This document shows, piece by piece, positions 33,591-51,338 of a stretch of DNA of 51,338 nt (the stretch's first letter is position 1; each line of letters starts with the position of its first letter). The position numbers and the translations under genes were made by a program. Below the pieces are notes generated by a model that worked only from the letters and a program-made list of their open reading frames with translations, ran no database searches and was not told where the DNA came from. Where the stretch lies: contig JAOEVD010000016.1 in NCBI GenBank assembly GCA_028383305.1, positions 1 to 51,338 of the forward strand. Reading direction: 5' to 3'. Source of the stretch: Candidatus Puniceispirillum sp. Lineage in GTDB: Bacteria; Pseudomonadota; Alphaproteobacteria; Puniceispirillales; Puniceispirillaceae.

Positions 33591-33614
33591 GGTTTGATGG
33601 CTCCATTCATCATA

Positions 33615-34922: not shown

Positions 34923-34958
34923 CCTCATAAATAAAACGTAACTAATCAATGGGCTGGG

Positions 34959-35755: not shown

Positions 35756-35810
35756 CACAAAAGGTTCCGTTATTATCTCAATCAATCGAAACCGATATTA
35801 TGAATGTGGG

Positions 35811-36251: not shown

Positions 36252-36394
36252 TTGATTGCACCTAAGTTAAACAGTTATTTAGTCTGCGGAGTAATAAAAT
36301 TAAAGTCCAAAGCTCTAAAAATCCAGACCTCTATTGAATGCGATTGGGCGTGAAAGATGAAAACCAAAAGCGGTTCGTATAAATTTGATTTTGA

Positions 36395-37225
36395 TTAGGT
36401 GTAAACACTTACCAGAAGTTGCAAACCGACAACAGCCAGAGCAAAATGTAATAAAAGATAGAATTGCTGATCGGTCATCAAATCACTTATTTTGTGTCCC
36501 AAAATCACTCCAATAGGTATCGCTGGCAAAAGCAATAGTGAGATAATTAGGCTCGATTTGGACAAAATATCAAGTTCCCAATAAAGCGGGACTTTGGTGA
36601 GGTTCAATATAAAGAAAAATGCGCCCGCTGAACCGATAAAAACGGTCCGTGGCACCTTGCAAGATAATAGAAATATCTGCAATGGGATGCCGCCTGAAAC
36701 TGAAATAAAGCTGGCAATGCCTGAAAGTGTGCACCAAAAACTGCCCCAGCTCCAAAGCGCGATTGGCCTGCTTTGCAGAGGCGGGATGGCGACAAGGTCT
36801 ATTTTGACGGGCAGAAAACGTTTTTTGAAATATAAAAAAGCTGTTAATAGCGACATGCCGCCAATAAAGCTGACAAGCGCAGTGTTCGATATATAATCGA
36901 AAAAATACCAGCCGAGGCCATGCCCCAACAAACCAAAAATCAACATAATCACGAGAAGTTTATAATTAATTTTATTGTTTGAAAAAAACACCACCCAGAT
37001 ATCAATAATCAATAAAATAGGAAGCGTTACGGCTAATGCAATGCGGGGCGATGTAACCAGTATAAGAACAGGTATACCCAGTGCGACGGCGCCACCAAAG
37101 CCGGATTTTGAAACCGCAGTGATGAGCACCGCGATAAAACCAATAGCGTAAAACAGGAATGGTGTGACAACGCCAACCGCGCCAAATAACTCAGTTAAAT
37201 AGGTCAAGCTATTGTTCCGTAACAA
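36395..37225 (-). CDS. TauE/SafE family membrane protein
   Basis: Up to 276 residues with about eight membrane helices. The repeated family motif appears as AVSKSGFGGAVALGIPVLIL near the N-terminus, and FISVSGGIPLQIFLL in the second half. Members are proposed to export sulfite, sulfoacetate or related anions. The frame's first start is TTG at 37225, inside an inverted repeat; TTG at 37207 is an alternative that leaves the repeat upstream. Confidence 0.85.
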   Translation of the reverse strand: MLRNNSLTYLTELFGAVGVVTPFLFYAIGFIAVLITAVSKSGFGGAVALGIPVLILVTSPRIALAVTLPILLIIDIWVVFFSNNKINYKLLVIMLIFGLLGHGLGWYFFDYISNTALVSFIGGMSLLTAFLYFKKRFLPVKIDLVAIPPLQSRPIALWSWGSFWCTLSGIASFISVSGGIPLQIFLLSCKVPRTVFIGSAGAFFFILNLTKVPLYWELDILSKSSLIISLLLLPAIPIGVILGHKISDLMTDQQFYLLLHFALAVVGLQLLVSVYT

Positions 37226-37255: not shown

Positions 37256-37547
37256 CCTTACTTGGCAAGGTCTAACCATGCTGTGATTTACGCTCTTAAC
37301 GAGCACCTATTCAGCAAATAAATAGAATATTGAATTTTTTGGAAAAATCTCTTTTCTAAAATTCTAAACCGCGTCATCACTTGCTTTGAAAACAGTGCGC
37401 TCAAGCCAAGGTCTTCTCCTTTTTTGTTGGAGTTTTTCCATGATGGTAAGATTGTGCTAGGCTGTTATTCAGATGGCAGAAAGAAGGCGTTTGCAATGAA
37501 TTTGGCGCGATCAAAGGGGTTAACTTTTATTTGGGAAGTGGTTTAAA
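37256..37547. other. Intergenic region between TauE/SafE and DUF938 genes
   Basis: About 290 bp of AT-rich sequence between divergent genes, presumably with both promoters. A 16-codon frame from the ATG at 37497 ends just before the methyltransferase. No RNA gene or repeat is seen. Confidence 0.4.
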
Positions 37548-38213
37548 TTGGTATTGCGTACAAACATCCCATCAACAGCCAGCGTTGTTCAGGAAAAAAG
37601 TGATGGATGCTTGCATTCGCCTGCTGCAGAGAGAAATTCAGCCCAAATAATTGAGCTTGTTCGCGGTTACGCGCCGGAAAGTGGAAGTGCTCTGGAAATC
37701 GCAAGCGGTACCGGCCAACACATAGTTGAGCTTGCCGCTGCTGTTCCCAACTTAATCTGGCAACCGTCTGACATAGACGAGACCCGCTTGAATAGCATTG
37801 TCTTAAGAAGCCTCGCAAAACAGTTACCAAATCTTTTGCCGCCCATAAGACTGGATGTAACGGATAAGGGCTGGTCAGCCTTTTGCCCCAATCAGGATTT
37901 CATCTTGCTGGTTAACCTGTTGCACCTTGTCAGTGAAGCTGAGGTAAAAGCTATCATACGTGGAATTTCTCAATCCCTAGCTGAAGATGGGCGTTCCGTC
38001 ATTTATGGTCCGTTTATGCGAGATGGTGTTCTAAGCAGCAGTGGTGACAGGTGCTTTCATCAGAGCTTGATAGAGGCTGATCCAGATATTGGTTATAAAG
38101 ATGATGCTTGGATGCTCGATCTCTCCAGGCAACAAAGTCTGAAGATTATCAAAATTCTGGAAATGCCAGCTAACAACTTGGCGTTCGTTATGGAGAAGGG
38201 TAACACCAATTAA
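37548..38213 (+). CDS. DUF938 SAM-dependent methyltransferase-like protein
   Basis: A 221-residue protein with the DUF938 opening SPAAERNSAQIIELV, SAM motif ALEIASGTGQHIVELA, the acidic PSDIDETRL and ILLVNLLHLVSEAE. The methyl acceptor is unknown. The start is TTG at 37548 after GGGAAG; no ATG lies in the first 60 codons. It stands alone among accessory genes. Confidence 0.82.
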   Translation: MVLRTNIPSTASVVQEKSDGCLHSPAAERNSAQIIELVRGYAPESGSALEIASGTGQHIVELAAAVPNLIWQPSDIDETRLNSIVLRSLAKQLPNLLPPIRLDVTDKGWSAFCPNQDFILLVNLLHLVSEAEVKAIIRGISQSLAEDGRSVIYGPFMRDGVLSSSGDRCFHQSLIEADPDIGYKDDAWMLDLSRQQSLKIIKILEMPANNLAFVMEKGNTN

Positions 38214-38336
38214 TCCATCCTGTAGAAAGGTACTTCTATAGACGCAATCAAGCGGGTGATGCGCGAGCCCAACATTCGGCTAGCAAAAGAATTACAGTTA
38301 ATATTTCGCTTCGTATTTGGGTAATAACATACTGTT

Positions 38337-38555
38337 TTATCTGTTTTTAAATTTCAATAAAAATAGCGCAACTAAACCAGAGACCATCGCAGTTATAACC
38401 AATATCAACGGGCTGTGCCAATCATCTGGACTGGTAATAAAGAATGCGAAAAATAGGCCTACAAACACCAGTAAAAAATCATATATTGGATTGCCTTTGA
38501 ATTTGTGCTCAGGGTTTTTCAATTTAACAATCTGATCCTTTTTGGTAACTATCAC
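38337..38555 (-). CDS. Small two-helix membrane protein
   Basis: A 72-residue protein with a basic N-terminus and two hydrophobic segments (DFLLVFVGLFFAFFI and LILVITAMVSGLVALFLL). The start is GTG at 38555. No family recognised. It precedes nothing on its strand and follows the GFA gene by 17 bp, so the two may be co-transcribed. Confidence 0.55.
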   Translation of the reverse strand: MIVTKKDQIVKLKNPEHKFKGNPIYDFLLVFVGLFFAFFITSPDDWHSPLILVITAMVSGLVALFLLKFKNR

Positions 38556-38572
38556 AGTGAAAGCAAAATTAA

Positions 38573-38983
38573 TTATTTTTTTGGTGGTCGTTTTTCAAAG
38601 GCTGGAAGGCCATCTGGCAAGTGATGAAATGGTTGGATGTCACAAGTAAATATAGCTGCTTGTGCTGCGAATGCTGATGGGTCATCCAGTGTCCCAACTT
38701 TTACAATCATTGAGTTTGGACGAGCGGGGCTCTCGGTCCCCATCGCTGTTCCGCAGTTTTCGCAAAAATGTCTTGTAACAGGCGTCTCAATATCGGTTCT
38801 TGCAAACTTTTTTGGATTCCCCTCTACGTAGCGAAATGCATCTTTGGGAAACACCATAACAATGTTTGGGTTACCGCCAGTGATGTACTGGCACTCTCGG
38901 CAGTGACACTGGAATGCAGCCTCGGCTTGCCCACTAATTTCATACTTAAGGCTGCCACAATAGCAACGTCCTATGGTTTTCAT
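38573..38983 (-). CDS. GFA-family zinc protein (glutathione-dependent formaldehyde-activating enzyme-like)
   Basis: About 136 residues. Zinc-binding cysteines appear in order: GRCYCGSLKYE, FQCHCRECQYITGG and HFCENCGTAMG. The fold carries glutathione-dependent chemistry in Gfa and CENP-V-like proteins; most bacterial members have no known substrate. ATG at 38983 follows GGAGAACC and is preferred over the longer frame to 39049. Confidence 0.88.
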   Translation of the reverse strand: MKTIGRCYCGSLKYEISGQAEAAFQCHCRECQYITGGNPNIVMVFPKDAFRYVEGNPKKFARTDIETPVTRHFCENCGTAMGTESPARPNSMIVKVGTLDDPSAFAAQAAIFTCDIQPFHHLPDGLPAFEKRPPKK

Positions 38984-39173
38984 CACCGGTTCTCCAAAAT
39001 TCTTTCTGTATGAAACCCTGACAGAAAACAAAGTTGGCGCATAGGCCAAATAATTAAGTCGAAGTAACTAACCAAATGAGAGATTTGATCTTGTGCTTCG
39101 GTTCATTTTCCCTGACCTTAAGAATAGCTGTTAGATTTTTGTATGGTGCCTGTGTTTTTGTGGAGGCCAATTT

Positions 39174-39866
39174 ATGGCTCAGGATAAAGAAACGTGTATT
39201 ATAGTTGGCGCAGGTAGTGGCTTAAGCGCATCTCTCGCTAGACTGTTTAGTGCGGAAAATATGTCTGTTGTCTTGGCAGCGCGTGATATCCAAAAATTGA
39301 AGGGTTTGAGAGAAGAGATCAACTGTGATTTGGTGCAATGCGATGTGACTAACATTAATCAAGTCGAGAGTCTATTTGCTCAAACTGACCAAATTTTAGG
39401 TAAGCCATCAGTTGTAGTTTACAATCCTTCAGCAAGAATCAGAGGCGACATAACAAGCCTTGATCCGGTAAAGACAAAGTTAGCACTCGAAACAACGTGT
39501 TATGGAGCGTTTTTAGTTGCTCAACAAGCTGCCATTCGAATGACCAAAATTGGTCGTGGAAGTATTTTCTTTACTGGCGCTTCAGCTGGAATAAAAGGTT
39601 TTCCAAACTCTTCAGTGTTTGCAATGGGTAAATTTGGCCTCCGTGGTCTGGCACAATCCTTGGCTAGGGAGTTGCAACCAAAAAATATTCACGTTGCACA
39701 TTTCGTTATAGATGGCGGCATTTCCTCTGAGTTAAGACCTGATACTGGAGAACAAACGCTTTTAAATCCAGATGAAATTGCAAAGACTTACCTTCATTTC
39801 CATCGCCAAGATCGCAGCATTTGGTCTTGGGAAATTGAACTGAGACCATGGGTTGAGAAGTTTTAG
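39174..39866 (+). CDS. Short-chain dehydrogenase/reductase family protein
   Basis: A 230-residue SDR with nucleotide motif IVGAGSGLSASLARLF, VVYNPSAR in place of the usual NNAG, and FTGASAGIKGFPNSSVFAMGKFGLRG, where Tyr of YxxxK is replaced by Phe (FAMGK). Such FxxxK forms occur in marine SDRs of unknown function. ATG at 39174 follows a good TGGAGG site. It precedes an EamA permease on the same strand. Confidence 0.85.
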   Translation: MAQDKETCIIVGAGSGLSASLARLFSAENMSVVLAARDIQKLKGLREEINCDLVQCDVTNINQVESLFAQTDQILGKPSVVVYNPSARIRGDITSLDPVKTKLALETTCYGAFLVAQQAAIRMTKIGRGSIFFTGASAGIKGFPNSSVFAMGKFGLRGLAQSLARELQPKNIHVAHFVIDGGISSELRPDTGEQTLLNPDEIAKTYLHFHRQDRSIWSWEIELRPWVEKF

Positions 39867-39947
39867 GGCTTAAGCGCTCATTAAACGTGGCGATTCAACA
39901 GCTATAATTTGCCCAAAACAGCTTCAACAGGATCAGGTCTCATCATT

Positions 39948-40862
39948 TTGCCGATAAGTAACATTCAAAAAGAAAATCTTCTTGGCAGCTTTTTGATGGT
40001 GGTTGCAATGGCAACATTTGCTGTCGAAGATAGTGTGATAAAACTTGTTTCGTCAGCGCTGCCAGTTGGACAGATTCTATTTCTGCTGGGTTTTGGCGGA
40101 GCTCTGACCTTTTCTGGATTGGCTTTGATCCTGCGAAAAGAGATTTTTTCATTGGTTTTTTTCACTAAGCCAATGCATTTTCGCGTGGTGTCTGAATTAA
40201 CAGGTCGCGTATTTTACTCATCCGCGCTTGCTTTGACACCTTTAGCCTCGTCTACAATGATTTTACAGGCAACTCCACTTGTTGTTGTGGTTGGCGCAGC
40301 TGTATTGTTCAAAGAAAAAGTTAGTGCTTTGCGGTGGGCTGCAGTTCTGCTTGGCTTCGTTGGTGTTTTGATCATAGTTGACCCTGCCAGTGATAGCTTC
40401 TCATTCTTGTCAATTTTGGCGGTGCTAGGAATGCTTGGTTTTGCGGGTCGAGATCTTGCTAGCCGGGCGGTGCCAAAGTCATTGAATATTTTTACTCTTG
40501 GGGTGCACGGCTTTATGTCGATTGCCCTGTCAGGCCTCGCCTTAAGCTTTTTCTTCAATGAACCGTTTATCTGGCCGGACGCCAGTTCTTGGCTTTACCT
40601 GCTTCTAGGTGTTTTTCTTGGTACAATTGGATACAGCTCAATCATCTCAGCAATGCGGATTGGTGAGGTGTCTGCAATCACACCTTTTCGATATTCACGG
40701 ATCATTTTTGGTGGGGCAATCGGTGTTTTATTCTTTGGAGAGAACATCACATTAACTGCGGCCATTGGTTGCGGGCTAATTGTATTGTCTAGTTTTATCG
40801 TTCTATACCCACGCCGCTACAAACAGGATCAGCGCGATTTCAAAAGCACAAACGAGGAATAG
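39948..40862 (+). CDS. EamA/DMT family permease (third of three)
   Basis: About 304 residues with ten membrane segments; EamA landmarks are LRWAAVLLGFVGVLIIVDP and ITPFRYSRIIFGGAIG. It is more distant from the two paralogues near 20 and 26 kb. The start is uncertain: TTG at 39948 after GGATCAGGT, or TTG at 39909. Its last dozen codons lie within the copy of the hypothetical-protein leader on the other strand, so the C-terminus may have been altered by that insertion. Confidence 0.85.
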   Translation: MPISNIQKENLLGSFLMVVAMATFAVEDSVIKLVSSALPVGQILFLLGFGGALTFSGLALILRKEIFSLVFFTKPMHFRVVSELTGRVFYSSALALTPLASSTMILQATPLVVVVGAAVLFKEKVSALRWAAVLLGFVGVLIIVDPASDSFSFLSILAVLGMLGFAGRDLASRAVPKSLNIFTLGVHGFMSIALSGLALSFFFNEPFIWPDASSWLYLLLGVFLGTIGYSSIISAMRIGEVSAITPFRYSRIIFGGAIGVLFFGENITLTAAIGCGLIVLSSFIVLYPRRYKQDQRDFKSTNEE

Positions 40863-40880
40863 GGTGAGTTTGTGGGGCAT
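40803..40880 (-). pseudogene. 25-codon truncated copy of the leader of the hypothetical protein at 36251
   Basis: Minus-strand ATG at 40880 opens KLTLFLVCAFEIALILF, nearly the same as KLILFSVCAFEIALIFF of the protein starting at 36251, then ends at a TAG at 40803-40805. Similarity extends a little upstream of the ATG. It lies 29 bp past the ricin-like gene and overlaps the 3' end of the EamA gene on the other strand. Confidence 0.6.
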
Positions 40881-40909
40881 TTCGTTGGTTACCTGAGATT
40901 GGAATATGG

Positions 40910-41437
40910 TCAATTGCCTATACGCCAACGTCTGTATTTGCCCTTGGTTGTAGCGCAGTTTTCAAGCGTCAAACGCCTCATCAAGTGAATAGGTGTCCCA
41001 CCACCGCCTTCTTTGGACTTTCCGTCATTCACTACTAAACAAAGTTCGTTGTTAACAACTAATCTAATCTCATTAGCTGAGTTTAGATCAAATTTTTGAA
41101 GATTTTGTTCAGCGCATCTTGTCAGAATTAAGCGCGATCCTTGAGAACTGTTTTCTGCTGCCATACAGACGTCAAAGGCAGGCAGATAAAATCTACCAGT
41201 TGCTACAAGGCTGGCATCAAAAGCCTGATCCACGCCAATCTGCCCTTGGTAGGAGTAACACGTGTGAGCCTGAAGCCCTCGTTGAACCTTTGCACGATCC
41301 TTATGACCGCGTATATCTATACAATATCCTCGCTGATCATCTAATTTGCTGACAAGCTGTACCTCAGCTAAATTATTACCCCAAGCCGTCTGGCTGCACA
41401 GGGTAAGGAATATGGCTGTGATCAGGGTGCGGGTCAT
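40910..41437 (-). CDS. Secreted ricin-type beta-trefoil-like protein
   Basis: A 175-residue exported protein. A 20-residue signal peptide ends TAWGNN. The rest has repeated segments of ricin-B type: GYCIDIRGHK, FDVCMAAENSSQGSRLILTRC with QNLQKFDL, and ELCLVVNDG ending YRRWRIGN. The paired Cys and the QxF/W-like turns fit a carbohydrate-binding trefoil. Its ATG shares a base with the stop of the deacetylase gene upstream, so both are made together and may act on the same polysaccharide. Confidence 0.75.
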   Translation of the reverse strand: MTRTLITAIFLTLCSQTAWGNNLAEVQLVSKLDDQRGYCIDIRGHKDRAKVQRGLQAHTCYSYQGQIGVDQAFDASLVATGRFYLPAFDVCMAAENSSQGSRLILTRCAEQNLQKFDLNSANEIRLVVNNELCLVVNDGKSKEGGGGTPIHLMRRLTLENCATTKGKYRRWRIGN

Positions 41438-42333
41438 TACTGCTTCAGTTGCTTATCTAGTGGCAGTTTACGGTAGAACCGAGAAACTTCGTTTGGTGTT
41501 GTAATCCAGATTTCATCACGCCTTTTACATATGTAATCGAGGGCTCTTTTTAAGTGTTTTTGTCTGAAGGGCTGACCAACAATGAATGAATGAAGCGATA
41601 GCGGAAAAACAAGCGGTTGTGGCTCATTTAAATCCATCAGAACATCAAACTGATCAATAATCATATTTGCGTATTCCTCAGCTGAAACTCGGCGTCCGAC
41701 TATTGCTGGCTGATCATTAAGTTCTATAGGGTAGGGTAGAGTTAAAATTTCGCCGTTATCAGTTTTCATCCAGAAGGGCTGCTCATCACAGAGGCCCCAA
41801 TCCAACAAATATTCATAACCAGCTGCGGACAAAATATCTGGCGTTTTTTGACTTGGAGTAAGGTAAGAGGACAACCACCCATTAGGGCGCTTACCATCAG
41901 CCTTGGTCATTATTTCTGTTACTTCGGCGACCATTTTAGCCTCTTCCTCAATAGCCATATCAATGGGCCTTGTGGTGCCGTTTGAGATACCGTGGCCGAT
42001 CATTTCATCACCGCGGTTGCGGTAGCGTTCCAAAAGCTCAGGGCTGTGGGAGTAATTAGCTGCATTTACGATAACGCCGACGTTCATTTCGAGGTCGTCG
42101 AACAGATCTGCTAAACGCCAACCACCCACTCTGTTTCCATATTCGCGCCATAACCAGCTTCTTTGGCTCCAAGGCTTTGTCTCGCGATCTAAGTCAATGC
42201 CGCCACCTTCACCAAACGGAAAATGTTCAATGTTTAAAGCGATGTAAAAGGCTATGCGTTTTCCATCTGGCCATTCAAAAGAAGGCCGTGTCGAAATACC
42301 CGAATAATTAAATCTATTGTGATCTTTAAGCAT
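41437..42333 (-). CDS. Polysaccharide deacetylase family protein (PuuE allantoinase-like)
   Basis: A 298-residue NodB-homology protein. Typical segments are RIAFYIALNIEHFPFGEGG, VGVIVNAANYSHSPELLERY, EMIGHGISNG and FPLSLHSFIVGQPFR. The motif order matches the PuuE/HpPgdA-like branch, which includes allantoinases and cyclic-imide hydrolases. No signal peptide, so a cytoplasmic amidohydrolase is as likely as a polysaccharide deacetylase. ATG at 42333 follows GAGGATG. Confidence 0.85.
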   Translation of the reverse strand: MLKDHNRFNYSGISTRPSFEWPDGKRIAFYIALNIEHFPFGEGGGIDLDRETKPWSQRSWLWREYGNRVGGWRLADLFDDLEMNVGVIVNAANYSHSPELLERYRNRGDEMIGHGISNGTTRPIDMAIEEEAKMVAEVTEIMTKADGKRPNGWLSSYLTPSQKTPDILSAAGYEYLLDWGLCDEQPFWMKTDNGEILTLPYPIELNDQPAIVGRRVSAEEYANMIIDQFDVLMDLNEPQPLVFPLSLHSFIVGQPFRQKHLKRALDYICKRRDEIWITTPNEVSRFYRKLPLDKQLKQ

Positions 42334-42555
42334 TGTTCACATCCTCTTGAGAAATGCTGCCACAAAATAAGGCCAGCGCAAAGGCCGGCCGAGTTTAGGG
42401 AGAAAATGCGTTAGGTTCACCATTAACACTGCACCTGTATTTTGACGGGTTTATGGCTGGAATCGTTTCATTGTGTGGGTTTAGCACAGGAAATTGCACG
42501 TAAATTTACGTTATGAAAATTAAAATATAATGAAGTCATTAGTGTAGAAAAGTAA
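42334..42555. other. Intergenic region left of the first repeat copy
   Basis: AT-rich, about 220 bp. A GGCC-rich hairpin-like stretch near 42372-42393 lies close to the deacetylase start. No gene or gene remnant recognised. Confidence 0.4.
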
Positions 42556-42672
42556 ATGGTGGAGAGGGTGTCTGCCTCACGCAGATTTAAGCAATTAATT
42601 ATGATCTGTTTTTCTGGATGCTGATAATCTTACCCCACATTCCACCCCAAAATAATATTGGGGTTATTGGGC
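42556..42672 (+). repeat. Attachment-like dispersed repeat, copy R1 (left half, diverged)
   Basis: Starts ATGGTGGAGAGGGTG, then the hairpin TCTGC-CTCAC-GCAGA, ATTATGAT, a T-rich stretch and the iteron TTACCCCACATT followed by a decayed second copy (CCACCCCAAAAT) and GGGTTATTGGGC. It matches R2 and R3b in order but has lost the right half where the dioxygenase gene ends at 42680. Confidence 0.75.
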
Positions 42673-42679
42673 CACCCTG

Positions 42680-43507
42680 CTACACGGGGATTTCACCCTG
42701 CGCAGTGCATCGGTGGAGTTTTCTTGGCATGTCTTCGGTGTAATCGCGGACCGCGTAGTGCATCGTGCGACGATTATCCCAAACTAAGACATCTCCCACA
42801 CGCCACTGATGGCGGTAGATATTTTCTGGTTGGGTCGCAACCTTGTTCATGTAGCTTAACATCCAGGATCCTTCTTCTGCACTGACATCTTCGATTTCAG
42901 TGGTGAAGTGTGGATTAACAAATATAGCTTGTTGGTTTGTGCCACTGGGCAATCTTACGATAGGATGTGATTGTGGAGGCTTTATTTCAGACTTATCTAT
43001 TAATCGTGCATCAGAAGTGCCGGCAATGCTTCTTTGAAAAGTTGCCATTCCACTATGGAGTGCTCTCATACCATCGATCATTTCTCTCATATTATCTGAT
43101 AGATTTTTGTATGCATTAACCATATTACACAGCATCGTGTCACCATGGCCTTCCGGTATAATAAGTGAGTGTAAAATAGTCGCTGACGGTGGTTGTTCTG
43201 AATGAGAGATATCAGAGTGCCAATAATCATTTGGCGCACCTGGGCGCCCAGGTTGGTTTTCCAGAATCAGAACTTCAGGCAAACCCTCGACGCTCGCGCG
43301 CGTTTTTAGTGGGTGCGAATTAACTGGGCCAAAAAATTCAGAAAAGGCAACTTGCGCGTCAGGGTTTAAGTCCTGGTTTCTAAATAAAAGTACAAGGTTG
43401 TCATTGTAAAGTTCTAGAATGTCAGATTTTGTTTCGTTGTTTATTTTGTTTAGATCTATGTCGCAGATTTCAATTCCCAAGGCTCCATTTATACATTTTG
43501 TCTTCAT
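42680..43507 (-). CDS. TauD/TfdA-family Fe(II)/2-oxoglutarate dioxygenase
   Basis: A 275-residue dioxygenase. The iron ligands are in YWHSDISH (HxD) and TMHYAVRDY, and the 2-oxoglutarate Arg is near the C-terminal DMPRKLHRC. The N-terminal ALGIEICDIDL is standard for TauD. Family substrates include taurine, 2,4-D and alkyl sulfates. ATG at 43507 follows GGAGG. It is divergent from a second dioxygenase and is bounded on its 3' side by repeat R1. Confidence 0.9.
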   Translation of the reverse strand: MKTKCINGALGIEICDIDLNKINNETKSDILELYNDNLVLLFRNQDLNPDAQVAFSEFFGPVNSHPLKTRASVEGLPEVLILENQPGRPGAPNDYWHSDISHSEQPPSATILHSLIIPEGHGDTMLCNMVNAYKNLSDNMREMIDGMRALHSGMATFQRSIAGTSDARLIDKSEIKPPQSHPIVRLPSGTNQQAIFVNPHFTTEIEDVSAEEGSWMLSYMNKVATQPENIYRHQWRVGDVLVWDNRRTMHYAVRDYTEDMPRKLHRCTAQGEIPV

Positions 43508-43801
43508 CCATTGCCTCCTAATAAACGCTGCTGTTGTTTATCTAATATGTACAATTGTAATACTGAATGATTTTCCAATAAAATGTCAAAGCCTAACCTT
43601 GACGTCATACCCTGTATTTTAATGCACATTAAAATTGGTTTTGATGAAGATTTTTTTCTGTTTCAGAATGATTTTGACAGAGGGATTGAGTCAGATCTTG
43701 AATCTTAGCTAAAACACCTTTGCTGGGTTGTTGGTTTCAAGGCGCAATGATATCGTTAGGTTTGAATGGTTCATTTGGTCGATGTTTTGAGGTCAATTCT
43801 G

Positions 43802-44845
43802 ATGCTGCCAGAACATATTAACATCCCCGCTGCATGGTTTGGTGCAGAATTAGCAGGCAAATCTGATATTTGGCATTACAAGCTTCAAGATGAAGAAATT
43901 GGCGAGTTAATCACAGCTGCGAACAAATTTTGTGCATCTGGAGAAGAATTGGGGAAGATTAACCCACAAAACTTTGTATTAAATAAATTTGCAGTCAGGC
44001 TCTCTGAACTCCAAGAGGAGCTTAGAACAGGAATTGGATTTAGACTTATTTCTGGTTTACCGGTGGACCAGTTGACTCCTGAATTATACTCTACAGTTTT
44101 TTGTGGCTTGGGCAGCTTCCTGGGTAAGGCGAGGTCTCAGAATGCCGCTGGACATTTGTTAGGTCATGTTCGAGATACTGGGGCGAGTGCCAAAGACCCA
44201 TCCGTTAGAATATATCAAACCTCTGCACGTCAAACCTTTCATACTGACCGTTCAGATGTTGTAGGCCTATTGTGCATTAGAGATGCTAAAGAAGGGGGCG
44301 ATTCATTATTGGCTTCCAGCGTGACCGCATTCAACGAAGTAATGAAGAAGTCGCCAATCTTGGCTGAAGAGCTTATGCGGCCGGTAGCATATGATCGCCG
44401 TGGAGAGGTACCGACTGGTCAAAAGCCTTATATGACGATACCGGTTGTCAATTGGTACAAGGGAAAACTCACCTGCATATACCAAAGGGAATACATCATA
44501 TCCGCCCAACGATATGAAGATGCGCCAAAGCTAACTAAATCACAGAATGAAGCTTTTGACCTTTTTGATGAGGTTTTAAATGACGACAAAATAAACCTCA
44601 AAATGAGGTTAAGACCTGGTGACATGCAGTTTGTTTATAATCACAGTCTTTTGCACGATCGAACCTGTTTTGTCGATTGGCCCGAGCCTGAAAAAACACG
44701 GCAACTGTTGCGCCTCTGGATCTCATTGCCTGGCGACAGAGAATTACCACCAACCTTTTCACAAGCATATGGAAACCTTGATGTAGGTGATCGTGGTGGT
44801 GTTGTAACCAAAGAGACAGTTCTCCACGCCCCAATAGATGCCTAA
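43802..44845 (+). CDS. TauD/TfdA-like Fe(II)/2-oxoglutarate dioxygenase, second type
   Basis: About 347 residues, longer than TauD. It has GIGFRLISGLPVD, the HxD motif in TFHTDRSDVVGLLC, the distal His region YNHSLLHDR and the Arg in RQLLRLWISLPGD. This layout is that of clavaminate-synthase-like/TfdA oxygenases found in marine bacteria. ATG at 43802 after TTTTGAGGT is preferred to the frame from 43766. Together with the divergent dioxygenase it forms the first module between repeats R1 and R2. Confidence 0.87.
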   Translation: MLPEHINIPAAWFGAELAGKSDIWHYKLQDEEIGELITAANKFCASGEELGKINPQNFVLNKFAVRLSELQEELRTGIGFRLISGLPVDQLTPELYSTVFCGLGSFLGKARSQNAAGHLLGHVRDTGASAKDPSVRIYQTSARQTFHTDRSDVVGLLCIRDAKEGGDSLLASSVTAFNEVMKKSPILAEELMRPVAYDRRGEVPTGQKPYMTIPVVNWYKGKLTCIYQREYIISAQRYEDAPKLTKSQNEAFDLFDEVLNDDKINLKMRLRPGDMQFVYNHSLLHDRTCFVDWPEPEKTRQLLRLWISLPGDRELPPTFSQAYGNLDVGDRGGVVTKETVLHAPIDA

Positions 44846-44944
44846 TGATAACATGCTTAGATTTTGCACACTTAGAATCCTGTCGAGTGCGCAAACTTAC
44901 TTCCTATTATCAATAGATTAACTAGGACATGTCATTTGTCTGCC

Positions 44945-45097
44945 CTAGCCCGTCTTGCCGTTTGACTTCATCAATTGAAGCATGATCAGCTTGAGCATCA
45001 ACCGACCTGCCCCAATCATTGAAATCTGGTTCAAATCATTTTCTGGTGCCAGCTCGACCAAGTTCAACCCCAGAACCTGCGCCTTTGCCGCCAACAT
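44945..45097 (-). pseudogene. C-terminal fragment of an agmatinase/arginase-family ureohydrolase
   Basis: A 50-codon minus-strand frame ends at a TAG (44945-44947) and reads VLGLNLVELAPENDLNQISM then IGAGRLMLKLI, the terminal strand and helix of ureohydrolases (normally like VVEVNPPYDxxxxTA...AA). The 300-odd residues that should precede it, with the metal ligands, are absent; sequence toward repeat R2 is unrelated. It is a truncated gene. Confidence 0.6.
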
Positions 45098-45102
45098 CTT
45101 TT

Positions 45103-45127
45103 AATATCCGATAATATGACGGATATT
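45103..45127. promoter_or_regulatory. Perfect 8-bp inverted repeat left of R2
   Basis: AATATCCG at 45103-45110 and CGGATATT at 45120-45127, with nine bases between. It lies at the break of the ureohydrolase fragment and about 45 bp before R2. It could be an old operator or recombination scar. No U-run follows. Confidence 0.45.
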
Positions 45128-45173
45128 ATGGGGTGCAGAGCTATTAAAGATAATTTAGAATAATTAAAAATAA

Positions 45174-45388
45174 GGGGTGTGGTGGAAAGGGTGTCTGCAG
45201 AATGCGGATTCAAGACATTGATAATAATACATTTTTTTGGTTGTGTAGGATCTTACCCCACATTTTACCCCACATAAAAATCAGGGTTACTGTGGACGTT
45301 TCTCCATCAGATTTGGACTTGATTAGAGGGGGGCGCAGGACGCAGGGGCTTGCGTCTCAGAAGGCCAGTTTACTTGATGGGTTGGTGC
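45174..45388 (+). repeat. Attachment-like dispersed repeat, copy R2 (full length)
   Basis: About 215 bp. In order: GGGGTGTGGTGGAAAGGGTG, hairpin TCTGC-AGAAT-GCGGA, CATTTTTTTGGTTG, then 46 bp (45247-45292) identical to R3b that contain the iterons TTACCCCACATT and TTACCCCACATA, then CAGATTTGGACTTGATTAGAG, a second hairpin GACGCA-GGGGCT-TGCGTC, and TTTACTTGATGGGTTGG. A 65-codon frame inside it is not considered a gene. Confidence 0.85.
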
Positions 45389-45438
45389 TTTTCCTCTAAA
45401 AGAATTAGCAACTAGTTCCAAGGCACTGTTAGAGTTTC

Positions 45439-46527
45439 ATGTCAGATCAGCGCGCAATTCCATTTTTACACATGCGAGGTGGCACCTCAAAAGGTCCAGT
45501 TTTTCATAAAAAAGATTTACCGGAAGACGAGAAAACATTAGCTAAGGTTTTGATAGCTGCGGTTGGCTCAGGGCATCCATTGAACATTGATGGAATAGGG
45601 GCAGGAAATTCAGTTACCACAAAGGTTCCAATAATATCAAAATCCAGTGATAGCTGGGCCGACATTGATTATTTCTTTGCTCAAGTTCAAGCCCTCGAAC
45701 GTACTGTAGATTTTACGACCACGTGTGGAAACATGCTTGCTACGGTTGCTCCTGCCTCTATTGAGCTTGGTCTTTTTGAGCCAACAGCCGATGAGACGTC
45801 AATAAAAATTCGAGCTGTGAATACCGAGGGGCGGTTTATTTCAACTGTCCAAACCCCCAATACAAAATTAACCTATGGGGGTGAGACAGTGATTGATGGC
45901 GTGCCCGGTTCCGCAGCGCCAATCAAGTTAACATTCATGGATATTACAGGTTCGAAAACAGGAAAATTTCTTCCAACTGGGCAGTTTAAGGATTTTATTA
46001 ACGGCCTCGAAGTGACTTGCATGGATGTCACGATGCCGGTGGTAATTGGTCGCGCGTCAGATTTTGGCATAAGTGGCTATGAGGATCGGGAGGCGCTAGA
46101 CCTCAATAAACCGTTGTTCGAAAAAATGGAATCTATTCGTCTCAAAGCTGCCGAACTAATGGGGCTTGGAGATGCGAGCAAATCTGTAGCGCCCAAATTT
46201 GCACTTTTAGCACCCGCCAAAAAAGATGGGACCATTGCAGTGAGGTATTTTATGCCCTGGCAGACACACCCAACTTTGGCAGCAACCTCGTCACAATGCC
46301 TGGCTGCATGTGTTTTAACCCCCGGCACTGTGGCTGAGGGTTTATGTAATCGGCCAGAAAGTAGCCCAGCAACCATTGTATTTGAGCATCCATTGGGCAA
46401 CATGAGCGTTGGTTTGAATTATGACTATCGAGGCTTGAACTCTATAGTTAACGCAGCTCATATTACACGGACTGCGCGTAAATTAAGCTCTGGTCTCATC
46501 TACGTACCGAATTCAATCTGGGTTTGA
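45439..46527 (+). CDS. PrpF/GalD-family isomerase (4-oxalomesaconate tautomerase-like)
   Basis: A 362-residue protein of the PrpF family (diaminopimelate-epimerase fold). Landmarks: FLHMRGGTSKGPVFH, VTTKVPIIS, TTTCGNMLATVAPASIE with the catalytic Cys, and EHPLGNMSVGLNYD near the end. Members isomerise aconitate, methylaconitate or 4-oxalomesaconate. No partner genes of those pathways adjoin. It is the single gene of the module between repeats R2 and R3. Confidence 0.9.
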   Translation: MSDQRAIPFLHMRGGTSKGPVFHKKDLPEDEKTLAKVLIAAVGSGHPLNIDGIGAGNSVTTKVPIISKSSDSWADIDYFFAQVQALERTVDFTTTCGNMLATVAPASIELGLFEPTADETSIKIRAVNTEGRFISTVQTPNTKLTYGGETVIDGVPGSAAPIKLTFMDITGSKTGKFLPTGQFKDFINGLEVTCMDVTMPVVIGRASDFGISGYEDREALDLNKPLFEKMESIRLKAAELMGLGDASKSVAPKFALLAPAKKDGTIAVRYFMPWQTHPTLAATSSQCLAACVLTPGTVAEGLCNRPESSPATIVFEHPLGNMSVGLNYDYRGLNSIVNAAHITRTARKLSSGLIYVPNSIWV

Positions 46528-46634
46528 CCAAAAAATTTGGGAACCAATTTCATCAATGCTGCGTAATCCCAATTGTGCCATTAATGTATCAGTTTCATCT
46601 CTGAGGATTTCGAGCACTCTATAAGCGCCTTCTT
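46513..46634 (-). pseudogene. C-terminal fragment of an FMN-dependent alpha-hydroxy-acid dehydrogenase
   Basis: Minus-strand reading gives GAYRVLEILRDETDTLMAQL then GLRSIDEIG, the last helix of LldD/mandelate-dehydrogenase-type enzymes (usually ...ALELLRDELDRTMALLGCRSIAEL). The stop is at 46513-46515. The match begins exactly where repeat R3a ends (about 46634), so the remainder was lost at the repeat junction. Its last bases overlap the prpF-like stop. Confidence 0.65.
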
Positions 46635-46730
46635 CTTTTTGGCTGCACAGTGTCTTACCCCACATTTCAACCCACATAAAAATCAGGGTTACTGAGGGCA
46701 TTTCTAAATCGGATTTGGACTTGGTTAGAA
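46634..46730 (+). repeat. Attachment-like dispersed repeat, copy R3a (right-central part)
   Basis: Begins TTTTTGGCTGCACAG and contains iteron TTACCCCACATT, a decayed second iteron (TCAACCCACATA), AAAATCAGGGTTACTGAGG and GGATTTGGACTTGGTTAGAA. It runs directly into R3b at 46731, so two copies are fused head-to-tail with the left part of R3a missing. Confidence 0.8.
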
Positions 46731-46950
46731 GGGGTGTGGCGGAGAGACAGTCTGCCTTGCACAGATTCAAGTCATTGATTATGATTCATTTTTTTGGTTG
46801 CACAGGATCTTACCCCACATTTTACCCCACATAAAAATCAGGGTTACTGAGGCCAGTTTTCTGTCAGCTTTGGACTTTGTTGAAGGGGGTGGGGCCGCAG
46901 GACGCAGGAGCTTGCGCCTCGGAGGGCCGGTTTACTTGATTGGTTGGTAG
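46731..46950 (+). repeat. Attachment-like dispersed repeat, copy R3b (full length)
   Basis: About 220 bp. GGGGTGTGGCGGAGAGACAG, a weaker TCTG/CAGA hairpin, CATTTTTTTGGTTG, the 46-bp core at 46804-46849 identical to R2, CAGCTTTGGACTTTGTTGAAG, GGGGCCGCAG, second hairpin GACGCA-GGAGCT-TGCGCC, ending TTTACTTGATTGGTTGG. It lies about 90 bp before the sulfatase pseudogene. Confidence 0.85.
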
Positions 46951-47039
46951 ATTTGATTGAATAAGGTTTAAATTTATTTCCTTGCAGATAAGCTTTGCTT
47001 GCCCTTTCCAAAGTTCACTCCCCAAGAGGAGGCTTACTA

Positions 47040-48479
47040 ATGCAAGACAGACCCATTAACCAGCTCATATTAATGACCGACGAACACACGCGGAAGGTTA
47101 TTGGATGCTACGGCAATAAGATTGTCAAAACGCCCCACATCGATAGCCTAGCGCGCGAAGGAACATTGTTTGAAAATGCCTATACAAATGTGCCTATTTG
47201 CGTGCCAGCCAGAGCTTCCTTTGCAATAGGAGATTATGCGCATCGTTCGCATCATTGGGATAACGCCACACCCTATTTGGGCACACCTAACTCTTGGGGC
47301 AACGAGCTACAAAAAGCCGGTATCACAGTGGGGTCAATCGGCAAACTACATTACCGGAACTCAGATGACGACGTTGGGTTGGATTTTCAGAAGATACCAA
47401 TGCATGTGGTCAACGGGACTGGTGATATTCTGGGCTGCGTTAGGGAGCCTTTGCCAAAGCGCTGGAAGTCTTTGTCTATGGCTGAAAAGATTGGCTCGGG
47501 GGAGACTGACTACAATATTTATGACCGTCAGGTAGCAACTGAAGCGATAGAGTGGTTAGCCACGGAGGGCAAACAAAAGAAACCTTGGGTGCTGTTTGTA
47601 TCCATGGTAGCGCCACATTTTCCGTTAATCGCACCGCAAGAATTCTACGATCTCTATGACAAGCTTGGTCTTATGCCAACAAAACCCCGGGAGTCGCCGG
47701 AGCATCCTTGGCATCACGCCATGCGAAACTGTCAAATCATGGATAACTTTACATCAGAGCGAACGAGGGTTGCGCTGGCATCCTATTACGGGCTTGTCAC
47801 ATTCATTGATGATTTGATTGGCAAAGTTTTAGGGGCGGTCCAACAAAACGGTCTAAGCGACAACACATAGATTTTCTACCTCAGCGATCACGGTGATAAT
47901 ATTGGTGAACGCGACCTTTGGGGCAAATCAAACTTCTATGAAGAGTCAGTTGGCATACCCTGTATTATAAAAGGCTCGGGAATTCCCGTGGAGAAAACTG
48001 TTAAAACACCAGTTTCACTGATTGATGTCTGCCCAACGATACTAAAAACCGCAGGTATCAACCCAATGGCAAAGCCGGGTAAATCGCTCGTCGATTTGGC
48101 AAACGCTGCAGATGATTTTGAGAGATTGGTTTTTTCTGAGTATCACGCTGTGGGATCAGCAACTGGTGCTTTTATGATCCGCAAAGGACAGTGGAAATTG
48201 GTCTATTATGTATCAATGCAGCCACAGTTATTCAATTTAGCTGAGGACCCGGAAGAATTGTGTGATCTTGGTGCCAACCCAAAGCACGATGGCATACGCA
48301 GACAATTGGAAACCGAACTTCGGTCAATATGTGACCCAGAAGCAGTAGATGCAATGGCGAAGGCTGATCAGATGGCTATCGTAAACGCAAATGGCGGCAT
48401 AGAGGCCGTTGTCGCAAAAGGCGGATTCGGTGCTACACCTCCCCCCGGGGTTAATGCAGAATTCGCAAACGGGAAATAA
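47040..48479 (+). pseudogene. Sulfatase interrupted by one in-frame amber codon
   Basis: One frame of about 480 codons, broken only by TAG at 47868-47870. The start ATG at 47040 follows AAGAGGAGG. The N-terminal part has LILMTDEHTRKVIGCYGN and the formylglycine site CVPAR (Cys codon 47199-47201), as in choline-sulfatase/phosphonate-monoesterase-like enzymes. After the TAG the frame resumes at once with IFYLSDHGDNIGERDLWGK, which holds metal ligands, and runs to a normal C-terminus. Without readthrough or correction the product lacks essential residues. It is the module between R3 and R4. Confidence 0.88.
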
Positions 48480-48511
48480 CAGATTTAAACGCTCGATCCA
48501 TAGCAGCGCGG

Positions 48512-48584
48512 ACCGGGGTTACTGGAGCCGTTTCGCTGTCAGCTTTGGACTTGATTAGAGGGGGTGGGGCCGCAGGATGCAATC
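48512..48584 (+). repeat. Attachment-like dispersed repeat, copy R4 (right part only)
   Basis: GGGGTTACTGGAGCC, then TTTCGCTGTCAGCTTTGGACTTGATTAGAGGGGGTGGGGCCGCAGGA-type sequence as in R3b and R2, cut off within the second hairpin (GATGCAATC). The left half with the iterons is missing. It begins about 30 bp past the sulfatase stop. Confidence 0.75.
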
Positions 48585-48778
48585 AATGCCTTTCTTAGGC
48601 AATATAAACAAATCAGATCTCATCACGCACTGGACATGAGATCACCCGTCCCTGAAGCCGTATTAGAGAAAGCCAAAATAAGCGGTGCTGAGAAATGGGG
48701 CTAGACATGTGGATGTACAGCAGCCGATGTAACCGACAGCAAAACAAAGCCCCTGCCGTAGATAGGTAGCTGAGAACC
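48585..48778. other. Region between repeat R4 and zur with no supported gene
   Basis: An inverted repeat ATCTCAT...ATGAGAT (near 48618-48643) and GGGGCT...AGCCCC arms are visible. A 68-codon minus-strand frame covers it but matches nothing I know. It may be debris from the same insertion history, and marks the right edge of the array. Confidence 0.4.
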
Positions 48779-49177
48779 CTACGCATTTTCACAAGCCCCA
48801 CAAATACCATGTAATTCAATGCTCGATTTTACAGCAGTAATTTTACCCTTTTCAGCCAGCTCAGTAATAAATAGCGACACGGAGTTATCAGAAACTTCTT
48901 GAACCTGCTCACATTTTTCACAGATCACAAAGGCAGTAACACCAACAGTTGCGCAAGAGGTATCATTGCATGCAATGAATGAGTTTAGACTCTCCAGACG
49001 ATGAACCTGGCCCATGCTGATTAATTTCTCCAACGCGCGATAGACCTGCAGGGGCGCCCGAACACTGGAACCGTGGAGTTGATCAAGGATCATGTAGGCA
49101 CTCATCGGATGCCCTTTTTTTTCAAGCACCGCTAGGACAAGTTGCAGATTATTATGTAATTCAGCCCTTTTTTTCAT
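48779..49177 (-). CDS. zur: Fur-family zinc uptake regulator Zur
   Basis: About 132 residues: an N-terminal winged helix (LHNNLQLVLAVLEKKGHPM then LHGSSVRAPLQVYRALEKL), a linker with VHRLESLNSFIAC, and structural zinc cysteines in CEKC and CGAC. Location next to znuBC identifies it as Zur, which represses zinc import when zinc is ample. ATG at 49177 is chosen over TTG at 49213. It is the last gene of the leftward operon. Confidence 0.9.
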   Translation of the reverse strand: MKKRAELHNNLQLVLAVLEKKGHPMSAYMILDQLHGSSVRAPLQVYRALEKLISMGQVHRLESLNSFIACNDTSCATVGVTAFVICEKCEQVQEVSDNSVSLFITELAEKGKITAVKSSIELHGICGACENA

Positions 49178-49230
49178 TTTTCCAATTTCCAAGTAACCTA
49201 TCTTGCTATTCAATTTAATTTTACTTTACT

Positions 49231-50031
49231 TTACTTTGTACGGAATGGATTTAGCGATCGGAATAATGACAAAACAAAACATAAAAGCGCAGCGACAACA
49301 ATACTGGGCCCTGCTGGAGTGTCAAATTCAAGAGAGCCTATAAGCCCAAAGCAAACCGCAGCGCTTCCTATAACAATGGCAATGGTTGCCATATGCTCTG
49401 GAGATTTTGCAAATGTTCGAGCAGACGCAGCAGGTATGATTAACAATGCAGTTATGAGTAACACACCAACTATCTTCAGTGACATTGCAATGACTGCTGC
49501 CATCAAAATCATGAAAATTACATTTATGCGATCAGACTTGATGCCTTCTGCTGTAGCTAATTCATAGCTAACAGTTGCGGCAAATAAGGGATGCCAAATT
49601 TTAGCAAGAACAGTTAATACAAATAATCCGCCTCCCCAGATTAGAGCCACATCAAATGTTGAGATTGATAAAATATCACCAAAGAGAAACCCCATCAGGT
49701 CAACCCTAACCCAAGTCATGAAGGCTAAAACCACCAACCCAATGGCCAAAGCAGAGTGCGCAAGCAGACCGAGCAAAGCATCTGAAGATAAGTTAGCGCG
49801 TCTTTGCAGAAGAACGAGCAACAACGCAACAACCGAGGATACAATAAAGACAGCCAAAGTGATGTTTAGTTCTAGTATTAGCCCCAAAGCGACACCCAAG
49901 AGCGCCGAATGGGAGAGCGTATCACCAAAGTAAGCCATTTTTCGCCAAATTATAAAACAGCCCAGTGGTCCAGCAATCACCGCAACACCGATCCCACCAA
50001 TCACAGCGCGGGTAAAGAAATCATCAAACAT
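49231..50031 (-). CDS. znuB: Zinc ABC transporter permease ZnuB
   Basis: A 266-residue ABC-3 family permease with about eight membrane segments. GPLGCFIIWRKMAYFGDTLSHSALLGVALG is the standard N-terminal pattern, with LLITALLIIPAASARTFA and the GPSIVVAALL end. It overlaps znuC by 8 bp and is followed 50 bp later by zur. A short ACTTT tandem repeat lies at its stop codon. Confidence 0.92.
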   Translation of the reverse strand: MFDDFFTRAVIGGIGVAVIAGPLGCFIIWRKMAYFGDTLSHSALLGVALGLILELNITLAVFIVSSVVALLLVLLQRRANLSSDALLGLLAHSALAIGLVVLAFMTWVRVDLMGFLFGDILSISTFDVALIWGGGLFVLTVLAKIWHPLFAATVSYELATAEGIKSDRINVIFMILMAAVIAMSLKIVGVLLITALLIIPAASARTFAKSPEHMATIAIVIGSAAVCFGLIGSLEFDTPAGPSIVVAALLCFVLSLFRSLNPFRTK

Positions 50032-50884
50032 CTGAATTGACTTTGCTATGGATTATAGCCTTGTGATTGATAGGCCCTGAACTAATTGGCGTTCTGGCAT
50101 TTTTTGAAACTACCTCACTTTTTGATGGTGTGTGAGTATTGTTTGCATTGGTGCCGTCACCCACGACACTCCCGTCCAAATGGTGCTTGTGGTCATGTCT
50201 ATGCTCATAAATCGCAAGGCCAGAGGAAGCGCGGTGTCCAAAAAGTGACTTAAATTCATTGCTCGAGACAACTGTCGCTGGAGTGCCGGAACAACATACA
50301 TGGCCGTTTAAGCAAATTACTCTGTCAGTTGTTGACATCACCACATGCAAATCGTGGGAAATTAATAAAATGCCACAGTTGAGCTGATTGCGAATATCTT
50401 CAATTAACTTGTAGAGCTCCAGCTCACCATTGAAATCCACACCCTGCACTGGCTCGTCAAGCACAAGAAGCTCTGGCGACGACAGAATGGCTCTTGCCAG
50501 CAGTACCCTCTGAAATTCACCACCTGATAGGCTTGCCATTTGTTCGTCGGCAAGATGATCTGTTCCAGTCGCCTTTAATGCAAAATTTATTGCCTTCCTA
50601 TCAGGCCTAAACGTTAGACGCAGGAAACGTGTTACAGATAGTGGTAAATGTGGGCTAAGCTGAATTTTTTGCGGTACGTAGCTGACGCAAAGCCCATCTT
50701 TACGGCTTGCATGGCCTTCGTCTGCAGAAAGAACACCGAGAGCGAGTTTGGCTGTTGTGGATTTACCCGAGCCATTCGGTCCAATCAGTGTGACGATTTC
50801 ACCAGCCTCAACTGTCATCGAAACACCCCGCACTAACCACTTTTTGGATCGAAAAATTCCAGCATTTTTTAATGATACAAGCAT
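50024..50884 (-). CDS. znuC: Zinc ABC transporter ATP-binding protein ZnuC
   Basis: About 286 residues. Walker A GPNGSGKST, signature LSGGEFQRV, Walker B LLVLDEPVQGVD and switch His in LISHDLHVVM. A His-rich stretch (YEHRHDHKHHLDG) near residue 230 is the zinc-sensing tail seen in ZnuC. The 50 residues after it are low-complexity and unusual. ATG at 50884 is used; a TTG at 50896 adds four residues. Divergent from znuA across a Zur-like box. Confidence 0.92.
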   Translation of the reverse strand: MLVSLKNAGIFRSKKWLVRGVSMTVEAGEIVTLIGPNGSGKSTTAKLALGVLSADEGHASRKDGLCVSYVPQKIQLSPHLPLSVTRFLRLTFRPDRKAINFALKATGTDHLADEQMASLSGGEFQRVLLARAILSSPELLVLDEPVQGVDFNGELELYKLIEDIRNQLNCGILLISHDLHVVMSTTDRVICLNGHVCCSGTPATVVSSNEFKSLFGHRASSGLAIYEHRHDHKHHLDGSVVGDGTNANNTHTPSKSEVVSKNARTPISSGPINHKAIIHSKVNSDV

Positions 50885-50956
50885 AACATCTTTCAAACGT
50901 TATAGGCATTAAGCGACCCGACACCGGAACCTTAAACAAACCCTTGCAGAATGTAA

Positions 50957-50980
50957 ATTTGTTATGTTATAACGTCAAGA
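50957..50980. promoter_or_regulatory. Zur box between znuC and znuA
   Basis: TTGTTATGTTATAACGTCAA contains the self-complementary GTTATAAC core (50966-50973) and matches the GTTATA-rich pattern of proteobacterial Zur boxes. It lies 35 bp before znuA and about 75 bp from znuC. A related AACGTTATAG at 50897-50906 may be a second, weaker site by the znuC start. Confidence 0.7.
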
Positions 50981-51014
50981 AAATTTGGTTCTAATTGTGT
51001 TAGGTTGAAAAAAA

Positions 51015-51338
51015 ATGCGAATCGCAAAGGTTACACTTATTGCAACTGCAATCTTCTCATCGAGTTTAGCTTGTGCCTCGGAAGGTTTAGGTGTTGTCAC
51101 GTCAATCAAGCCCATCCATTCCCTGGTTTCAGCGGTCATGGACGGCATTGGCACGCCGTCGCTAATTATTGAGGGGGCAGGGTCTCCACACACATACGCG
51201 TTAAAACCATCGCAGGCAAAAGCACTGCAAGATGCTGATTTGGTTTTCTGGGTCGGTCCAGCCATAGAGAGTTTTCTTGAAAAACCGATTAAGGAGGTTG
51301 CTTCCAGTGCACGTATTGTCACCTTGTCAGATGCAAAT
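51015..51338 (+). CDS. znuA: Zinc ABC transporter substrate-binding protein ZnuA (3' end outside window)
   Basis: 108 codons are visible to the window edge. A signal peptide (MRIAKVTLIATAIFSSSLACASE) is followed by VVTSIKPIHSLVSAVMDGIG and the first zinc His in EGAGSPHTYALKPSQAKAL, then DADLVFWVGPAIESFLEKP, the ZnuA pattern. ATG at 51015. Divergent from znuCB-zur. Confidence 0.92.
   Translation, partial: MRIAKVTLIATAIFSSSLACASEGLGVVTSIKPIHSLVSAVMDGIGTPSLIIEGAGSPHTYALKPSQAKALQDADLVFWVGPAIESFLEKPIKEVASSARIVTLSDAN

Follow-up and report, generated by a model that had tools for sequence, protein, structure and literature searches.

Introduction

Stacked insertion at one tRNA is a known route by which bacteria collect genes. 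For Dehalococcoides, the parts of the published account compared here describe several tandem islands downstream of one RNA gene, ssrA. A short direct repeat derived from the 3' end of ssrA marks their borders, the DNA surrounding this repeat shows additional conservation, and the integration module can be separated from the cargo (McMurdie et al. 2011, PMC3146451). Additive flexible genomic islands (fGIs), in which cassettes are added at tRNA genes, are described in the sections compared for Methylophilaceae (fGI-2, PMC10872708), Actinomarinales (fGI1, PMC7771536) and Alteromonas (fGI1, PMC4119200), the first two with recurring or tell-tale copies of the tRNA end. Tycheposons, according to the passages compared, are elements of marine bacteria that carry cargo and have a tyrosine recombinase next to a tRNA gene (PMC10872708; named in PMC11389934), and the islands in the compared part of PMC10256201 are those of Phaeobacter. 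Here, we analyse a 51,338-nt stretch of DNA from Candidatus Puniceispirillum sp. (contig JAOEVD010000016.1; the window), in which unrelated metabolic genes are separated by worn copies of one repeat and which very probably holds a tRNA-anchored array of integrative islands at a tRNA-Ser(UGA) gene.

Contig C8, which the window covers in full, belongs to a host genome of 2.41 Mb in 81 contigs that is 84% complete. SAR116 is an abundant ocean lineage, and, read in this way, the array shows SAR116-type cells adding and losing single metabolic genes at one tRNA. A sequence-only reading of the window had proposed attachment scars left by serial insertion, with a recombinase acting in trans, or else a mobile cassette platform.

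Results

The repeat copies and their junctions

Five copies of the repeat had been claimed, all in one orientation, and all five were found at their sites on the + strand. With R3b (46731-46948) as query, the others match at 42557-42674 (R1, 75%), 45174-45386 (R2, 80%), 46630-46739 (R3a, 84%) and 48516-48581 (R4, 83%); since their E-values range from 2.7e-13 to 3.3e-52, these copies are not chance. A complete junction consists of a core that is the reverse complement of the tRNA-Ser 3' end, an arm with TTACCCCACATTTTACCCCACA and a segment of about 107 bp, which we call the seam. In the full unit R3b, the arm ends in TTACCCCACATTTTACCCCACATAAAAATCA and the seam opens with GGGTTACTG. TACCCCAC occurs six times and GGGTTACTG four times in the window, always within repeat copies and always on the + strand.

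The copies are unequal in make-up, and all their parts lie on the + strand. R1 has a core (42556-42570, ATGGTGGAGAGGGTG, the reverse-complemented tRNA-Ser 3' end with one base off), followed at 42571-42674 by an arm with TACCCCACATTCCACCCC at 42631 and only the opening bases of a seam that is otherwise lost. All three parts are there in R2 and R3b: R2 with core TGGTGGAAAGGGTG (45180-45193), arm (45194-45283, TACCCCACATTTTACCCCACA at 45254) and seam (45284-45386), R3b with a short flank, GGGGTG, and core TGGCGGAGAGACAG, which has the ACAG allele of the tRNA (together 46731-46750), arm (46751-46840, TACCCCACATTTTACCCCACA at 46811) and seam (46841-46948). R3a (46630-46730) is an arm with a truncated seam and no core, and R4 (48516-48581) is a partial seam only, with GGACCG as its left edge. 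Direct repeats of the tRNA 3' end, 14-15 bp long, are thus present as cores in R1, R2 and R3b and missing from R3a and R4.

An integration event predicts that homology to a tRNA flank ends just past the core, and three alignments end in this way, which supports the reading of the copies as junctions. The left flank of R1 (42348-42555, +) has a homologue in the complete relative G004, on the 3' side of tRNA-Ser(UGA), which represents the pre-insertion state; from about 42348, the two align through ATGGYGGAGAGGGTG and then diverge, R1 continuing with TCTGCC and the G004 tRNA with GGATTCGAACC. The R1 flank of G010 aligns with the tRNA-Ser flank of G003 and diverges likewise, with one core mismatch. 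The left flank of R2 (45105-45179, +) aligns with the integrase-side tRNA-Ser flank on another contig of the host genome, C43, and loses homology just past the core. These are the three matching-flank comparisons; R3b was also compared with C43. We conclude that islands were stacked at a single tRNA-Ser(UGA) gene and that R1, R2 and R3b are their attachment-site junctions.

The proposal of attachment scars therefore stands for R1, R2 and R3b, by their cores, by the flanks of R1 and R2 and by the presence and absence of modules described below; it does not extend to R4. Consisting of seam without a tRNA-Ser core, R4 is evidently not a tRNA-Ser scar. Its GGACCG left edge recurs at C28, C78 and C18, beside DUF6538-type integrases.

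The head-to-tail arrangement of R3a and R3b had been taken as a product of unequal recombination. A deletion fits better. The seam of R3a is cut off at TTAGAAGGGG, after which the next junction begins with GGGGTGTGGCGGAG; since AAGGGG(G)TG-like stretches are found in both parent sequences (other seam copies and the C43 flank), the simplest reading would be that two junctions were fused by deletion through short homology. A piece of a gene for an FMN-dependent dehydrogenase (FMN_dh) to the left of R3a fits with cargo having been lost.

The tRNA-Ser gene and its integrase

C43 carries tRNA-Ser(UGA) at 4867-4956 and, adjoining its 3' end, an uninterrupted P4-type integrase gene (3494-4705) with the domains Arm-DNA-bind_3, Phage_int_M and Phage_integrase. 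Between the two lie three TACCCCAC motifs. A small AlpA-like open reading frame (ORF) overlaps the end of the integrase gene (22.2 bits, cut-off 21), and C43 also holds a further seam. The N-terminal half of znuA is at the right end of C8 (51015-51338, +) and the C-terminal half opens C43 at its left end. Because the two halves, each occurring once, sit at facing contig ends, C43 most likely continues C8 across a gap in znuA; a separate, more distant relative is on C1.

None of the 27 matches to PF00589 in the genome is on C8, so that the claim of a window without a recombinase is borne out for tyrosine integrases, serine recombinases and transposases having had no model search. The recombinase need not have acted only in trans, as the array most likely includes, at its tRNA end, a P4-type integrase gene of its own.

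C43 also encodes a small HGGxSTG-domain protein (L018 2526-2843, NF041373), whose relatives are found in islands at L054, L063, L064, L066, L071 and L074. A comparison with PHROGs covered three C43 proteins.

The island region of C8 probably spans 37502-51338 (no strand assigned). To its left, homology to G003 and G010 stops at 37501, just past the start codon of a gene whose place in G003 is between the backbone and tRNA-Ser. By way of C43, the region would likely reach the integrase and the tRNA about 5 kb past the end of the window.

The tRNA-Ser locus in relatives

Proteins and DNA of the window were mapped on the tRNA-Ser(UGA) loci of 11 relatives (G002-G005, G008-G011, G014, G016 and G020), the identity of the tRNA being confirmed at nine of them. 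In G003, tRNA-Ser is followed by one gene of 582 amino acids and then by the backbone, without the island genes of the window. G004 has four island genes (37548-40862 in the window) and the R1 flank beside its tRNA-Ser, which makes it a pre-insertion site for R1; the dioxygenases, PrpF, sulfatase and znu genes are missing from this locus. G010 has R1 and the two dioxygenases (91% DNA identity), plus a disrupted relative of the 37548 gene, arranged in a different order; no PrpF, sulfatase or znu gene was found within the approximately 40 kb fetched. Relatives of the C43 integrase are present at tRNA-Ser in six of the 11 (G002, G008, G009, G011, G014 and G016; 31-77% amino acid identity), and cassette content differs among G000, G003, G004 and G010. 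Integrase relatives together with these differences in presence and absence argue that the tRNA-Ser locus is a recurrent target at which modules come and go. Module presence and absence in relatives had been named as a check on the proposed array, and it speaks in its favour: the modules are absent from G003, partly present in G004 and reordered in G010. A gene order conserved across all relatives, which would have spoken against it, is excluded.

These data also bear on the idea that a single large island entered once and that the repeats arose by later internal duplication. Duplication would yield copies in the same orientation, and R3a and R3b do stand head to tail. Against it, the left flanks of R1 and R2 differ and match different tRNA-Ser flanks (those of G004 and C43), modules are separately present or absent in relatives, with G010 carrying modules separately, and the aligned copies differ by about 16-27%. 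We regard a single entry as exceedingly unlikely.

Proposed route of array formation

According to our model, a P4-type tyrosine integrase recombines the attachment site of an island (attP) with the 3' end of tRNA-Ser(UGA). Every insertion would restore a full tRNA beside the integrase, and the far end of the island would keep a copy of the tRNA 3' end together with the other arm of the island. The next island would enter at the restored tRNA and push the older ones outward. Internal joints should therefore read, in order, old integrase-side flank, tRNA core, new far arm, seam and cargo. R2 has this order in full, R1 and R3b have it in part. The integrase probably binds to the TACCCCAC repeats, which flank the core on either side, as arm-type sites. 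Older islands would later have lost integrases and cargo by deletion, R3a-R3b being two joints fused once the DNA between them was lost, and the seam may be the place where cargo and attachment modules were exchanged.

The cores, the flank matches, the presence and absence of modules, the integrase and tRNA on C43 and the reassortment at or near the seam (see below) can be read from the sequences themselves; order and number of the insertions we infer, since no module in the window has both ends intact. This lack of intact modules is also one of several points that weigh against stacked islands. Among ten junction-type copies that were lined up, three from the window and seven from elsewhere, the core is mostly kept in six (R1, R2, R3b, G010, C18 of G009, and G011). 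Cores are degenerate in G005 and G014, and only AGACAG is left in the copy at 2337729 of G004, far from the tRNA-Ser of that genome at 241445, and in the copy on C11 of G009, a contig without a tRNA. The cores of seven lined-up tRNA-Ser genes end in GGTG (four) or ACAG (three), and the junctions show both endings; the R1 core of G010 ends in GGTG, yet the present tRNA of G010 has ACAG. The match of R3b to C43 is limited to the 6-bp GGGGTG plus the core. R4 and the seam on C43 are without a tRNA-Ser core; some module borders are therefore not scars of the C43 integrase. G004 is without window genes 32184-37225, which are kept by G003 and G010; DNA left of 37502 is thus variable, too. Finally, the join of C8 and C43 spans an assembly gap in a genome that is 84% complete.

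Distribution and nature of the seam

A profile of the seam was built from 24 copies. In a search with strict filters and rough calibration, it hit 29 of 101 genomes at an E-value of 0.001, with up to 12 matches per genome; 27 of these genomes belong to the family of the window. Of the 29, 11 reach 1e-10 and the weaker matches are less sure. Named genomes were also scanned with a seam pattern. Of the 13 stretches that matched, ten belong to records of SAR116 or Puniceispirillum, two to a single record with the label Gammaproteobacteria and one to a record whose label says no more than Alphaproteobacteria.

The complete genomes G004 and G020 together have eight strong seams, of which four are no more than 1.5 kb away from a PF00589 match (0.15 expected), a number that random placement reached in one of 20000 trials; with weak copies included, it is four of 12 (0.22 expected). 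The other four strong seams are 14-40 kb from the nearest PF00589 match. Seams are located beside DUF6538-type integrases or pieces of them at C28, C78, C18, L053, L054, L059 and L063, with a tRNA-Gly or tRNA-Arg close by at C78, L054 and L063. Seam copies thus adjoin at least two integrase types. Repeats found widely at random had been named as an outcome that would refute the array; the seam is indeed widespread, but its distribution is non-random with respect to integrases.

These numbers can also be set against the view that the repeats are a dispersed non-autonomous element, similar to miniature inverted-repeat transposable elements (MITEs) or repetitive extragenic palindromic (REP) sequences, which inserted between genes and separates the modules by coincidence. 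The multi-copy, dispersed seam would suit such an element, and so would R4, a seam alone, and the four strong seams of the two complete genomes that lie more than 5 kb from an integrase match. Random insertion, however, would not produce the tRNA-Ser 3' end with tRNA-Ser-flank homology up to the core that is seen in R1, R2 and the R1 copy of G010, nor would it place the other four strong seams so close to integrases. We therefore consider this view very unlikely and keep to stacked islands at tRNA-Ser.

The best conserved stretch of the seam is TTACT at its left edge, present in 27 of 27 aligned copies; the alignment left out G007 and G013, which are without the left edge, and R1, which has TTATT there. 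RNAalifold predicted no pairs for the 27 copies, and 13 single-strand folds of seam, core and arm, some on both strands, were no better than shuffles (z -0.79 to +1.13). A structured RNA or attC-type site was rejected on these grounds. Other functions were also considered and dropped. As a portable promoter or leader, the seam shows no consistent pattern, the next listed downstream ORF being on the seam strand in 12 of 28 copies; as a coding sequence, it has stops that vary among the few copies inspected by eye. For a packaging signal or a phage origin, two exact seam patterns had no match in viral_contigs, which is weak evidence.

The folds bear likewise on a platform of the integron kind, which would have attC-type sites and an integrase supplied in trans; a mobile cassette platform had been one option of the sequence-only reading. 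Short modules between repeats of the same orientation are what such a platform would have. None was found here: nothing in the host genome passes the TIGR02249 cut-off (19 weaker matches, the best at 69.7 bits versus 265), although at 84% completeness an integron integrase gene could be unassembled, the 13 folds show no attC-like structure and the junction cores are tRNA sequence. We give this platform almost no credence.

Reassortment at or near the seam

The left side of the seam at C78 matches G004_1434 (-844 to -29, 86%) and its right side matches G004_544 (seam end to +816, 78%), with which C78 also has 79 bp of the left edge in common. C28 has a molybdenum-hydroxylase cargo behind a DUF6538-type end; G014 has cargo of 90% identity behind a tRNA-Ser-type end. 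As the match starts 224 and 625 bp past the respective seams, the breakpoint is not fixed to the seam itself. R3b and the sulfatase module of G007, whose contig begins within its seam, are identical at 384 of 400 positions rightward of the seam end and at 58 of 88 inside the seam. Attachment modules and cargo evidently reassort at or near the seam, by an exchange that may be site-specific or homologous.

At L054 (3022-16311) and L063 (7040-18622), in the complete genomes G004 and G020, the seam and 200-230 bp of outer arm form inverted pairs that are 98-99.6% identical and 13 and 12 kb apart. At L055 (12526-12765), an N-terminal integrase remnant is joined at TACCCCACA directly to the seam, and the joint looks as if core and one arm had been deleted through the arm repeats.

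Cargo and other features

Gene content is as had been noted, with two dioxygenases of the TauD type, PrpF and a sulfatase; a single in-frame TAG interrupts the sulfatase frame. The cargo of the R1 module comprises a TauD/TfdA-type dioxygenase (42680-43507, -; 94.5% amino acid identity in G010) and the second TauD-type dioxygenase (43766-44845, +; 95.5% in G010 and 86% in G005). The R2 module carries the PrpF-family gene (45439-46527, +). Two remnants were absent from the earlier description: the FMN_dh C-terminal piece (46513-46650, -; 26.6 bits, cut-off 24.9) and a possible C-terminal remnant of the arginase family (44948-45097, -), which is a weak match (E 0.077, 12.9 bits, cut-off 22).

The sulfatase gene (46995-48479, +) is in two pieces, 46995-47870 and 47988-48479, with the TAG at 47868; close relatives in G006, G007 and G008 are open frames of 495-534 amino acids. 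A second copy of its N-terminal part, 90% identical, is in another island of the same genome (L020 3-500, on C78), where it adjoins a broken DUF6538 integrase and tRNA-Gly(UCC). The last module of the window has a Fur-family regulator (zur-like) and zinc-type ABC transporter genes (48779-50896, -), zinc being assigned by gene context, followed by the znuA half.

Single-protein searches in 16 genomes each (the own genome, nine genus relatives and six from other families) gave a dioxygenase relative in G009 (78%) and sulfatase relatives (73-95%) in six of the nine genus relatives. Among the island-region proteins run through Pfam, no relaxase or conjugation gene was found, dedicated models not having been used.

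The island region also encodes a ricin-type beta-trefoil lectin domain protein (40910-41437, -; PF00652) with a signal-like start, judged by eye, and no second Pfam domain. With Rfam at gathering thresholds, the only match in the window was a TPP riboswitch (10566-10685, +; 60.5 bits), upstream of a row of genes that, from their translations by eye, resembles thiamine biosynthesis and uptake.

Discussion

Tandem islands bordered by tRNA or transfer-messenger RNA (tmRNA) repeats are already published, and our main finding is a further case of these. The seam is the less ordinary part of the array. It is tempting to speculate that SAR116 islands use it in common as a site of exchange. It would mark the boundary of the cargo for attachment modules that are unrelated to one another, and cargo and integrase modules would be shuffled through it, so that one cargo pool serves several sites. 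The attachment modules would then be P4-type at tRNA-Ser and DUF6538-type at tRNA-Gly or tRNA-Arg, with partners changing at the left edge of the seam. We put this forward tentatively, as a possibility that is rather doubtful at present. If true, it would account for the movement of the same cargo among attachment sites that have different integrases.

No literature on island ends with conserved non-coding modules was found, and no account of the seam was recognised, most subscription papers being outside reach. By titles and abstract openings, no account of such arrays in SAR116 or Puniceispirillum was recognised.

As far as the compared parts of that account go, the array resembles the ssrA islands of Dehalococcoides in its tandem islands, in the 3'-end repeats, in the conservation round the repeat and in a separable integration module. 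Unlike there, where serine recombinases and a tmRNA gene are involved, we find P4-type tyrosine integrases and tRNA-Ser(UGA), and the seam also borders islands with DUF6538 integrases. With the additive fGIs, as described in the sections compared, the array has in common that cassettes are located at tRNA genes and that their content varies between strains, whereas a seam of about 107 bp common to different integrase types finds no mention in those sections. C43 is similar to tycheposons in layout, with a tyrosine recombinase and a tRNA at one border, as far as this is described in the passages compared. A P4-type integrase with an AlpA-type partner is a known arrangement at island borders, and C43 has the same, an integrase beside the tRNA with a small AlpA-like ORF adjacent to it.

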